Shown here one piece after another: positions 20,916 to 30,703 of a stretch of 30,715 nt of DNA. The position numbers and the translations under genes are program-made. This stretch comes from a virus. Under the pieces are notes generated by a model that was not told the DNA's origin, ran no database searches, and was given only the letters and a program-made list of their open reading frames with translations. Location: the IMG/VR virus record IMGVR_UViG_3300021957_000186, positions 1 through 30,715 of that record, one strand, 5' to 3'. The number at the start of each line of letters is the position of its first letter. The first letter of the stretch is position 1.

Positions 20916-21066
20916 CAAGTGTCTCGTTAATAATGTCTTTTAATTCCTGTCTTTCTAAATCAGTAAAGACATTTCGTTTTGGTATTACCAATGGTGGATA
21001 GGATTTCTTTGATGATGTTTTACCACCACTATGAATACTCATCCCTTGTGTATCTATCTTATCCAT
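20875..21066 (-). CDS. Small hypothetical protein upstream of thyX
   Basis: 63 aa, starting MDKIDTQGMSIHSGGKTSSK. Start chosen at 21066 because GAGG lies 6 nt upstream and the ATG overlaps the previous stop (ATGGATAA). The C-terminal half is a charged helix (TDLERQELKDIINETLDERE). No known family recognised. It overlaps thyX by 41 nt and belongs to the unit driven by the promoter at 21258-21286. Confidence 0.65.
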   Translation of the reverse strand: MDKIDTQGMSIHSGGKTSSKKSYPPLVIPKRNVFTDLERQELKDIINETLDEREQRKTNQRNS

Positions 21067-21235
21067 CGTCATCCTCAAAAACTTCGTCGTAATCTACTAT
21101 GTAGTTAGAAGCAGGATCATCAAAATTTTCTTGCTTAGTCGTGTATACATCTACATCAGAAAATACTTCACTCTCCAATGCTTCCACAAGGAGTTTGAGA
21201 TTTCTCACTATCAACTTAAGTTTCTCTCGTTCCAT
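21059..21235 (-). CDS. Small acidic hypothetical protein
   Basis: 58 aa: an N-terminal helix MEREKLKLIVRNLKLLVEAL, then ESEVFSDVDVYTTKQENFDD, and an acidic tail (YIVDYDEVFEDDDG). First gene after the terminator-promoter element (about 23 nt from the -10 box), and its stop overlaps the next start. Conserved-looking small cyanophage protein, function unknown. The acidic tail could mimic DNA or bind a basic partner (speculation). Confidence 0.7.
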   Translation of the reverse strand: MEREKLKLIVRNLKLLVEALESEVFSDVDVYTTKQENFDDPASNYIVDYDEVFEDDDG

Positions 21236-21257
21236 GAGTATAAATTATGATATTTCA

Positions 21258-21286
21258 ATTCTACATTAAAAAAGGAGGGCAGTCAA
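21258..21286 (-). promoter_or_regulatory. Sigma70-type promoter with -35 in a terminator loop
   Basis: On the minus strand TTGACT (21281-21286), exactly 17 nt, then TAGAAT (21258-21263). The -35 hexamer lies in the loop of the terminator at 21268-21292. It is followed by the 58-aa, 63-aa and thyX genes, which look like an early or middle unit read by host-type RNA polymerase. Confidence 0.65.
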
Positions 21287-21292
21287 CCCTCC
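21268..21292 (-). terminator. Rho-independent terminator
   Basis: Minus strand GGAGGG-TTGACTG-CCCTCC followed by six T. It ends transcription of the gene at 21304-21486, whose stop is about 12 nt upstream. It overlaps the next promoter. Confidence 0.8.
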
Positions 21293-21303
21293 CTGCGATC
21301 AGA

Positions 21304-21486
21304 CTAAGTTAGCATCCTCCTACAAATTCTTTTACAGGTAACTTGGTCATCATCGCATTCTATAAGACAATTGTAATAATCGTTTATTAGATCTGATTCC
21401 TCCATAGAACGGTTTAATGTATTTGACAATTTCTCTACGCTTTGTTTCCACCCCGCCAATTGATTATAAGAAATTAAATTGTGCAT
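21304..21486 (-). CDS. Small Cys-containing hypothetical protein
   Basis: 60 aa, starting MHNLISYNQLAGWKQSVEKL, ending YYNCLIECDDDQVTCKRICR and RMLT. Start chosen at 21486 because GGAGGG lies 5 nt upstream; an earlier in-frame ATG is part of that ribosome site. Four Cys in the last 20 residues (C-x4-C-x6-C-x3-C) could form a disulfide or metal site. Unknown function; monocistronic, closed by the terminator at 21268-21292. Confidence 0.7.
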   Translation of the reverse strand: MHNLISYNQLAGWKQSVEKLSNTLNRSMEESDLINDYYNCLIECDDDQVTCKRICRRMLT

Positions 21487-21578
21487 AATGCCCTCCATTA
21501 TACTTTATATTAAGGACATAACAACATACCAAAAAAGTTTTGGTTACATACGCCATATCCTCTCAATTAATTCTACCA

Positions 21579-22154: not shown

Positions 22155-22172
22155 AGGTCTAATTATAGACCT
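22155..22172 (-). repeat. Inverted repeat in an untranslated leader
   Basis: AGGTCTA-TAAT-TAGACCT on the minus strand (7-bp perfect stem, 4-nt loop). It lies just downstream of the late promoter motif at 22180-22187 and about 90 nt before the 53-aa gene. The stretch 22066-22201 otherwise holds no minus-strand gene. There is no T run, so it is not an intrinsic terminator. A leader mRNA stabiliser or a small RNA structure is possible. Confidence 0.55.
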
Positions 22173-22179
22173 CATATCT

Positions 22180-22187
22180 TATTTAGT
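22180..22187 (-). promoter_or_regulatory. Late promoter-like motif ACTAAATA
   Basis: Minus strand ACTAAATA in the non-coding gap after the gene at 22202-22444. It would give a leader of about 110 nt for the two small genes at 21695-22065. Confidence 0.45.
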
Positions 22188-22201
22188 CAAGTGTCTTGGT
22201 A

Positions 22202-28143: not shown

Positions 28144-28493
28144 AATTTTTTTACTGTGAACGATCCATCTTTGTTATCTATCCATTCAACTTCATCACCT
28201 GGTTCCCAATTTAATTCAGTTAGAAGTTCCTTAGGTATGGTAATCACACCTTCATCTTCAACAGGAATATTATAAATCATTTTGCTTTCATCACACCCAG
28301 TCACCTCAGCTTTGTAAGTAATAGTAATTTGATTATATACTTCGTCTCGGTTATCGCTGTTGTATACATGACAACGTTCGATCTTAGCATCTAATATATT
28401 CACTACGTTATCTAGTTGATGTTCAACTATAAACTTTTTAAATCCATCATCCATCCAACTCTTGTTAGATCCTGGTATGTTAAATCCTTCCAT
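28134..28493 (-). CDS. Protein with C-terminal AbrB/SpoVT/MazE-like domain
   Basis: 119 aa. The last 40 residues read EGVITIPKELLTELNWEPGD then EVEWIDNKDGSFTVKKL: the swapped-hairpin DNA-binding pattern 'xITIPKEL...L.W.PGDEVE......G.....K'. The N-terminal 75 residues are a separate region with MDDGFKKFIVEHQLDNVVNI and a beta-rich stretch NQITITYKAEVTGCDESKMI. It is placed between purS and purC (overlaps with both). It could regulate the operon or act on host promoters (inference). Confidence 0.75.
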   Translation of the reverse strand: MEGFNIPGSNKSWMDDGFKKFIVEHQLDNVVNILDAKIERCHVYNSDNRDEVYNQITITYKAEVTGCDESKMIYNIPVEDEGVITIPKELLTELNWEPGDEVEWIDNKDGSFTVKKLWK

Positions 28494-28771
28494 TATTCAA
28501 TACCTTTAGGGAAACTTTCAATCTCAGTCAATTCATAATCCCAGTCTTCCATGACTGTATTGGCATAGAAACGATCAGAAAGCATTTCAATTTCTTTCAC
28601 TGCATACTCTCTGGTCGGTGCTTCCATCCAAATATCAATTACCTTACCAAGTCTAAGTTTCTTGATATTCAACTCAGACAATCGTCTACTACCATCTCTC
28701 ACAGCATTACCTGGAGAGTCATCAACCTGTGATCTCAGACGGATGAATACTAATGCTTTAAATTTAAGCAT
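28493..28771 (-). CDS. purS: Phosphoribosylformylglycinamidine synthase subunit PurS
   Basis: 92 aa. PurS signature: KALVFIRLRSQVDDSPGNAV (4-23), LNIKKLRLGKVIDIWMEAPT (about 34-53), and FYANTVMEDWDYELTEIE at the end, matching 'VxVxLxxxVxDPxGxAV...L......(V)R.GK.i.........A......LLxNPVxExxxxE'. PurS is the small subunit that bridges PurL and PurQ; neither is in this window. An intrinsic terminator lies directly before the ATG with its U run touching the start codon. The stop shares a base with the next ATG (TAATG). Confidence 0.9.
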   Translation of the reverse strand: MLKFKALVFIRLRSQVDDSPGNAVRDGSRRLSELNIKKLRLGKVIDIWMEAPTREYAVKEIEMLSDRFYANTVMEDWDYELTEIESFPKGIE

Positions 28772-28794
28772 AAAAAAGAGGGTGTTTAACCCTC
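28772..28794 (-). terminator. Rho-independent terminator abutting the purS start
   Basis: Minus strand GAGGGT-TAAAC-ACCCTC then TTTTTT directly followed by ATG of purS. It ends transcription of the 72-aa gene (stop at 28803) and may act as an attenuator for the pur operon. The only purine-rich stretch before purS (AGGAGGG) is in the hairpin. Confidence 0.8.
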
Positions 28795-28802
28795 CTAATA
28801 TA

Positions 28803-29021
28803 TCATTCTTCAGTTTGTTTGTAAAGGTCTTCCAGTTTTTCTCTGGATAGATCTACATACATCAACTCTTCACCTGCTTGTGGTGCCTCAGGATGCTTTG
28901 GTTTGGGAGGATTCCTCATCTCTATGTTAATAGATTGAATGTTAGCCCACATCATAGCGAAGGCACCACCGGCAATGAGAGCGAAGCATGTGAAATAAAG
29001 AAAGACTTCAAAACTATTCAT
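28803..29021 (-). CDS. Small membrane protein
   Basis: 72 aa from ATG 29021 (MNSFEVFLYFTCFALIAGGA). One transmembrane helix (about 5-27, continuing FAMMWANIQ), then a Pro-rich linker NPPKPKHPEAPQAGEELMYV and a helical acidic end (SREKLEDLYKQTEE). The start overlaps the stop of the next upstream gene (TAATG). A frame running further upstream would overlap that gene by 87 nt and is not believed. Function unknown; followed by the terminator at 28772. Confidence 0.75.
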   Translation of the reverse strand: MNSFEVFLYFTCFALIAGGAFAMMWANIQSINIEMRNPPKPKHPEAPQAGEELMYVDLSREKLEDLYKQTEE

Positions 29022-29289: not shown

Positions 29290-30180
29290 TCAAGAATTTG
29301 TCCTCAAACTGGCATAATCAAAAACTTTCTGAGGAATATTAATTCCTAATGATTCTTCAAATCCTTTGAATCCTGGAGCAGAATTTGCTTCACAGATTTT
29401 ATATCCGTCATCGTGAAATAATAAGTCAACCCCAGCAATATCAAGATCAAGAGCTTTTGCAACTTGAATACTAAGCATTTCCAATTCGTCATCCACATCG
29501 TATGCTTCCCCTTGACCTCCACGGGAAATATTGGCTTTAAATGAACCATCAGTAGATTTGCGTTGCATAGCACCAACAACTCTACCACCAATAACAATTA
29601 CCCTCAGATCTCTTCCTTCTGATTCTTTAATATATTCCTGAACAATCATAGAATTCTTAAAGTCAAGAGAAGAAATAAGTTCCGACAAATCTTCAAAATG
29701 TTTAGCGTCTTCACAAAGAAAAACACCATCTCCATGTGATCCAGTTATAACTTTCAGGACACAAGGAAATCCCACTACCTTTTCAACTAACTCAGATTTA
29801 CATGGAAATCTAGTCAGCATAGTTTTGGGAATAGGAAGTCCTGCTTGTGCCAAAATTTGATTGGCATGAAACTTATCCTTTGATGCTTCAATAGAAGCAG
29901 AATTAGGAAGAGTTTGGACATTCATTCTCTCGAATTGTCTGAGAACACTGAGATTAAAATAGTCAGTGCCACTCCCAGTACGAGCAAGTATGCCGTCAGG
30001 CAGAGAAACAATATCATTACAATGTCGAATAGATTTACGGTCATCTCTGGATACAATCAAATCAATTTCGTTAGCATAAACCAAACGAAGATCGATATTA
30101 TATTTATCTGATTCTTCAACAAATCTTTGTCTTTCATAGATCTCTGTGGTGAGACGATTACCAAGCATCCAGAGTTTCAT
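29290..30180 (-). CDS. rimK: RimK-family ATP-grasp ligase
   Basis: 296 aa. ATP-grasp features: K143 with TGSHGDGVFL (146-155), QEYI (181-184), GRDLRVIVIGGRVVGAMQRK (189-208), FKANISRGGQGE (214-225), and the metal-binding IAGVDLLFHDDGY then ICEANSAPGFKGFE (248-275). This is the RimK/LysX type, which joins amino acids (in E. coli, Glu to ribosomal protein S6 or free peptides). In a phage it may modify the host ribosome or another protein, or make a small peptide (inference). The last gene of the window's right end overlaps it at one base (30180). Confidence 0.85.
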   Translation of the reverse strand: MKLWMLGNRLTTEIYERQRFVEESDKYNIDLRLVYANEIDLIVSRDDRKSIRHCNDIVSLPDGILARTGSGTDYFNLSVLRQFERMNVQTLPNSASIEASKDKFHANQILAQAGLPIPKTMLTRFPCKSELVEKVVGFPCVLKVITGSHGDGVFLCEDAKHFEDLSELISSLDFKNSMIVQEYIKESEGRDLRVIVIGGRVVGAMQRKSTDGSFKANISRGGQGEAYDVDDELEMLSIQVAKALDLDIAGVDLLFHDDGYKICEANSAPGFKGFEESLGINIPQKVFDYASLRTNS

Positions 30181-30644
30181 CAGGCTACTCCATTAGCACT
30201 ATCTACATCTTCAGAATAAAGAGTATCATACATAGTTCTCATCTTCTTCAGGTCATTATCAGTATATTTGGCAAATCCTTCAAAACGACGATAGATTTGC
30301 CAGTAACGTTCTTCCCATGAAGGATGGTTTTTATTCTCCAGGTCTTCATCCATCGTGATCTCATATTCATCACAGATCTTACGCTGCTCTGCTTCAAGCA
30401 CCATATCATTGAAGACCAACGACATAGCACCAGAGCGAATGGAGCAGGGAGACATACCCACACAGAGCATGAACTTCTCAAACAGTTTGAAATACTGAGT
30501 GGCATTGAGATCAGCAGCAGGTGCAGTAATCACATAATGCTCTTCGGGAATGTAGTCATCAACAACAGTAGAACCAAATCCACTACCATAGGTGGGAGTG
30601 AAGGTAGCGTCAAACTTGAACTGAACTTCTGCTTCGTAGGTCAT
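30180..30644 (-). CDS. Conserved hypothetical protein
   Basis: 154 aa from ATG 30644 (MTYEAEVQFKFDATFTPTYG). A longer frame starts ten codons earlier but that start would fall too near the -10 box at 30666, so the inner ATG is preferred. Middle: HYVITAPAADLNATQYFKLF, then EKFMLCVGMSPCSIRSGAMS and LVFNDMVLEAEQRKICDEYE, WEERYWQIYRRFEGFAKY. No family recognised. First gene after a terminator-promoter element, so likely transcribed early; it is coupled to rimK. Confidence 0.75.
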   Translation of the reverse strand: MTYEAEVQFKFDATFTPTYGSGFGSTVVDDYIPEEHYVITAPAADLNATQYFKLFEKFMLCVGMSPCSIRSGAMSLVFNDMVLEAEQRKICDEYEITMDEDLENKNHPSWEERYWQIYRRFEGFAKYTDNDLKKMRTMYDTLYSEDVDSANGVA

Positions 30645-30665
30645 GTCTGTGATGTGTATGAGAGT

Positions 30666-30694
30666 ATTATACAATAAAAAACCACCCCCGTCAA
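30666..30694 (-). promoter_or_regulatory. Sigma70-type promoter with -35 in a terminator loop
   Basis: Minus strand TTGACG (30689-30694), 17 nt, TATAAT (30666-30671): near-consensus. The -35 hexamer spans the 5-nt hairpin loop plus one stem base. It lies 22 nt before the ATG at 30644. Confidence 0.75.
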
Positions 30695-30703
30695 GGGAGT
30701 GGT
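30676..30703 (-). terminator. Rho-independent terminator
   Basis: Minus strand ACCACTCCC-TTGAC-GGGGGTGGT then a T run: a 9-bp stem with one G-U pair. It ends a unit that enters from outside the window and overlaps the next promoter. Confidence 0.85.

Follow-up and report, generated by a model that had tools for sequence, protein, structure and literature searches.

Terminator hairpins with a putative −35 box in their loop form composite cassettes in T4-like cyanophages

Results and Discussion

T4-like cyanophages very probably carry composite terminator–promoter cassettes, in which the DNA encoding the loop of a terminator hairpin doubles as the −35 box of the promoter for the next gene. Two such sites, here called A and B, are found in the stretch of DNA analysed (the window; IMG/VR record IMGVR_UViG_3300021957_000186, positions 1 to 30,715), a 30.7-kb fragment of a T4-like cyanophage with genes for gp32, PhoH, ThyX, PurM, PurC, PurS and a RimK-like ligase. 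The records closest to the window are Synechococcus phages, for example S-RIM12 and S-CAM8. The elements of both sites and the genes around them are as follows.

21304..21498, minus strand: gene of a small phrog_665 protein, the unit upstream of site A and predicted to be ended by it
21272..21294, minus strand: site A intrinsic-terminator hairpin AGGGAGGG-TTGACT-G-CCCTCCTT, −35 in the loop
21281..21286, minus strand: site A −35 hexamer TTGACT, in the hairpin loop
21264..21280, minus strand: site A spacer, 17 nt
21268..21273, minus strand: site A T-tract TTTTTT
21258..21263, minus strand: site A −10 hexamer TAGAAT
21059..21235, minus strand: phrog_878 gene downstream of site A, 58-aa protein MEREKLKLIV..., no assigned function
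30681..30703, minus strand: site B intrinsic-terminator hairpin ACCACTCCC-TTGAC-GGGGGTGGT, −35 in the loop
30689..30694, minus strand: site B −35 hexamer TTGACG, in the loop
30666..30671, minus strand: site B −10 hexamer TATAAT, spacer exactly 17
30180..30644, minus strand: phrog_6458 gene downstream of site B, 154-aa protein MTYEAEVQ..., no assigned function

Anatomy of sites A and B

An earlier note on this DNA, which named no strand, had proposed that the loop of the hairpin at site A is the −35 hexamer of the next promoter, that the spacer is exactly 17 nt and that the same design returns at 30666-30703. The sequence anatomy agrees with all of this, and both sites lie on the minus strand. 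In full, site A reads AGGGAGGG-TTGACT-G-CCCTCC-TTTTTT-AATG-TAGAAT, with the stem arms GGGAGGG and CCCTCC around the loop and exactly 17 nt from TTGACT to TAGAAT, and site B, the second copy of the design (TTGACG-17-TATAAT), reads ACCACTCCC-TTGACG-GGGGTGGT-TTTTT-ATTG-TATAAT. By sequence both qualify as intrinsic terminators, having a stable G+C-rich hairpin (folding energy −14.4 kcal/mol, z −4.1 against shuffles for A; −15.2 kcal/mol, z −3.6 for B) with a run of T following at once, and both also qualify as sigma-70-type promoters with 10/12 (A) and 11/12 (B) matches at a spacer of 17. When the RNA of site A is folded, a closing U-G pair is made by the first U of UUGACU or by the base next to it, leaving UGACU as the strict loop; the −35 hexamer spans the loop even with this pair. 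Transcription is predicted to start near 21251 at site A and near 30659 at site B, which would give leaders of about 16 nt up to the ATG. When terminators were required to have a loop −35 matching at 5/6 or better and, 16–18 nt further on, a −10 of the same quality, the window gave these 2 composites, and 300 dinucleotide-preserving shuffles of it gave 0.

The phrog_665 gene upstream of site A probably starts at an internal ATG near 21486, since its first ATG is overlapped by a −10-like TATAAT (21502-21497) and the match to the family starts at residue 5. Further away, at 22155-22190, lies a strong promoter-like sequence, TTGACT-17-TATAAT, whose −10 falls within the palindrome AGGTCTATAATTAGACCT; this palindrome is possibly an operator or a hairpin.

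Recurrence in related viruses

The putative cassette recurs across T4-like cyanophages and was found in hundreds of related viral sequences; these are not independent of each other, so there are fewer separate origins than the counts suggest. For a set free of any pattern we took 160 viral loci found with gp32 and PurM as protein queries. Here TTGAC stands at the loop in 31 of 239 unique terminators, compared to 3 with its reverse complement GTCAA, and in 28 of these 31 a −10 matching at 5/6 or better follows at a spacer of 17, while each of the other spacers between 10 and 25 has such a −10 in at most 3 of the 31. A larger collection including six complete cyanophage genomes gave the same association between a TTGAC loop and a downstream −10 (33/128 versus 6/306, odds ratio 17, p 8e-14).

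A virus-wide scan of IMG/VR with the pattern CCC-TTGACN-GGG..T5..TATAAT and free gaps returned 111 stretches, compared to 6 for the control with the reversed loop, CCC-GTCAAN-GGG; for the GGG/CCC version of the pattern, the figures below refer to the matches listed. The gaps permit spacers of 12–22, and among the matches listed the spacer peaks at 17 (53/68 and 69/85). Kyanoviridae genomes were the closest by protein similarity for 217 of 227 loci, again among the matches listed. The earlier note had suggested scanning relatives for TTGAC loops with a −10 at 17 plus or minus 1 nt. Both the use of the loop as −35 and the recurrence of the design in related cyanophages are supported computationally.

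The cassettes account for a small part of the promoter-like sequences. Among 1285 promoter-like sites of at least 10/12 in the fetched loci and the window, 62 are of the loop type and 31 of the flush type described below, and the majority of the strong promoter-like sites of these genomes have no terminator beside them. Syn9 has no loop-type composite and the other complete genomes examined have none to a few; cultured cyanophages that do carry composites include Bellamy (near 184220) and S-SSM4 (near 152414). A literature search for mapped cyanophage transcription starts found none.

Loop identity, stem covariation and spread of the cassette

Among orthologous genes, loop identity tracks the room available for a promoter and not the gene or its need for a terminator. 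This could be seen from 48 unique regions upstream of phrog_878 genes, which were picked by protein similarity alone. In 13 of them the terminator lies 34–38 nt before the ATG; 12 of these 13 have a TTGAC loop, the 13th has the loop TTGCAA, and all 13 show a −10-like hexamer at 17–18 nt. In the other 35 the terminator touches the ATG, and none of these 35 has a TTGAC loop, their loops being GNNA or TATA. Relatives of site B carry mostly −35-like loops (TTGACG, TTGACT, TTTACA and TTCACA). A loop varying at random across homologous terminators, which the earlier note had named as evidence against its idea, was not seen, the exceptions being some relatives of site B with TTGCAC or TTCG as loop and an intact −10.

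We also compared 228 unique composites, 194 of them with a spacer of 17, all chosen for having the loop and the −10. Stem positions change jointly, with GC, CG, AT and TA all occurring at the same pair, and this includes pairs outside the bases fixed by the pattern. As an example, one stem pair is CG in 51, GC in 41, AT in 23 and TA in 6 composites, and Watson–Crick in 121/128 compared to a shuffled mean of 42. Loop and −10 are constant among the composites, a set selected for both. With covarying stems and an unchanging loop and −10, hairpin and promoter both appear to be maintained under selection. About 18 gene families are preceded by one and the same version of the cassette, GGGGTGGTTTTTTATTGTATAAT plus its hairpin, a spread as expected of a mobile regulatory cassette. 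Common ancestry alone is a weakened explanation, because stems, downstream genes and registers differ.

A second register

When all strong promoters around 471 cyanophage terminators were plotted by their register, two peaks appeared with little elsewhere: the −35 in the loop (type I, 49 cases) and the −10 flush with the hairpin (type II, 33 cases). Random positions would give about 0.7 and 1.2, respectively, by hand arithmetic. The window has one type II composite, located before purS.

28797..28825, minus strand: type II promoter TTTACA-17-TATATT, −10 flush with the hairpin
28776..28796, minus strand: type II hairpin AGGAGGG-TTAAACA-CCCTCTT, directly after the −10
28493..28771, minus strand: purS (PF02700), the gene behind the type II composite

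The T-tract of this hairpin runs into the purS ATG (28771), and in type II composites generally the T-tract mostly runs into the ATG. The predicted start falls into the 5' arm or the loop in 38/38 cases, therefore RNA made from the promoter is not expected to fold the hairpin; for RNA from the predicted start the folding energy changes from −11.2 to −0.3 kcal/mol. No Shine–Dalgarno sequence was seen in type II leaders. Four downstream gene families switch between type I and type II from genome to genome. At two loci (L091 and L148) a loop-type and a flush-type terminator flank one shared −10, and a single promoter there lies within two hairpins.

Proposed mechanism and alternatives

In the mechanism that we propose, RNA polymerase coming from the upstream gene would make the hairpin RNA and leave at the T-tract, shortly before the −10. 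The DNA bases encoding the loop would be bound as −35 by host polymerase of the sigma-70 type, with the −10 17 nt further on, and the new transcript would begin downstream of the hairpin and could not terminate itself, because its start lies behind it. The downstream gene would gain a promoter of its own and be insulated from read-through within about 50 bp, and the cassette could be placed before different genes. Type II would be a sister solution: with the −10 directly against the hairpin, transcription would begin within the 5' arm, and folding would be left to read-through RNA alone. From these patterns we infer active promoters, which probably fire early, working terminators, and insulation as the benefit; the reading that the sequences support best is a promoter insulated within a minimum of space.

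That ordinary terminators meet promoter-like sequences by chance is extremely improbable. These AT-rich genomes are indeed rich in promoter-like matches (72 found versus 60 expected), but chance overlap was rejected by the 0 composites in 300 shuffles, the reversed-loop control with 6 versus 111 stretches, the spacing peak at 17 and the comparison of orthologous genes. It is very improbable, too, that the loop is kept for a reason at the level of the RNA, such as an antitermination factor or another protein at UUGAC, with the −10 being incidental. A loop that keeps its identity while the stems change is what RNA–protein sites show, but such a role leaves unexplained the −10 at exactly 17 nt, the occurrence of TTGAC only where a −10 has room while abutting terminators of the same gene have GNNA or TATA, and variants such as TTTACA and TTCACA, which are near the −35 consensus and in register.

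Somewhat less remote, yet decidedly unlikely, is a role of the hairpin as an attenuator that tunes read-through into the downstream gene according to the stage of infection. Type II hairpins abutting start codons do resemble the leaders of T4 genes e, soc and 49 (PMC3014915). Against this stand the simple strong hairpin with its T-tract, for which no alternative antiterminator helix was noticed, and the type I downstream transcript, which carries no hairpin. The remaining explanation, doubtful but worth considering, goes beyond insulation: host polymerase released at the T-tract might stay on the DNA and re-initiate at the overlapping promoter. Such a hand-off is conceivable because E. coli polymerase in vitro usually remains DNA-bound once it has terminated at an intrinsic terminator, diffuses and is able to start again at promoters close by (PMC6978380, PMC6978322), and at sites A and B the predicted RNA release point is only about 17–19 nt upstream of the predicted start. 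However, re-initiation needs sigma, the restarts in PMC6978322 are usually antisense, and a polymerase paused at the T-tract would sit on the new promoter and might keep it from firing, which makes occlusion equally possible. Moreover, type II puts the promoter before the hairpin, so the overlap does not require a hand-off.

With the insulated promoter as the preferred reading, the cassettes represent a conserved DNA design across abundant marine viruses, in which the same bases would serve for stopping and for starting transcription and two alternative registers are swapped at the same gene. This suggests how cyanophages could regulate small genes one by one without spending much space on it. 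The cassettes could also be natural templates for asking whether a terminated polymerase passes to the next promoter; if a hand-off were true, the result would be a run of separately started, physically linked transcripts.

Comparison with known systems

A derivation of the design from the host was rejected: searching one genome per species from 84,980 bacterial and archaeal species with the loop pattern gave 41 stretches, and 0 of these 41 are labelled as cyanobacterium. The 41 are mostly of the Clostridia type with spacers of 16–17. About a dozen of the Clostridia-type composites (L593-L633) are followed by a GTTCTAT-GAAC palindrome, which may be a regulator site.

Type II can be compared with the leader hairpins of T4 gene e, soc, 49 and I-TevI, which carry internal late promoters (PMC3014915). 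In both, the promoter is at the 5' side of the hairpin and only read-through RNA folds. They differ in that the hairpin of the gene e type hides the ribosome-binding site and its promoter is a T4 late promoter, whereas the type II hairpin is terminator-like with a T-tract and its promoter is of the sigma-70 type.

A composite of the KVP40 type, GGGTTGAC-TACG-GTCAACCC-TTTCTTGTATTAT, shares with the cyanophage sites a −35 that overlaps the terminator hairpin. Its TTGAC belongs to the stem, in the 5' arm, and its spacer is 18, in contrast to the loop and the spacer of 17 in cyanophages. The Comeau 2014 study reportedly treats KVP40 and nt-1 and may already include this composite.

The closest known system is the PeSL (promoter-early stem-loop) cassette, as far as the sources describe it a composite promoter–terminator motif of T4-like phages (Arbiol 2010 and Comeau 2014, as cited in PMC4503421), and the loop serving as −35 would be a new arrangement of that kind. 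Like the PeSLs of these accounts, the cyanophage composites combine a short terminator hairpin and a putative promoter of the early, sigma-70 type in one short intergenic element that stands before different genes, and PeSLs are tied there to gene shuffling. Identity with the PeSLs of T4 and RB49 was rejected: in T4, RB49 and phi1 the −35 is located about 30 nt downstream of the loop and outside the hairpin (register about +30), unlike the register of 0 in cyanophages. Reading the RB49 sites as promoters is supported by the mapped 5' ends of RB49 early promoters (PMC1524935). For the cyanophage S-PM2, the analysis reported in PMC4503421 gives few PeSL-like elements. The composites described here would extend the gene-shuffling idea of the PeSLs to cyanophages, where such cassettes, going by that account, were thought to be rare.
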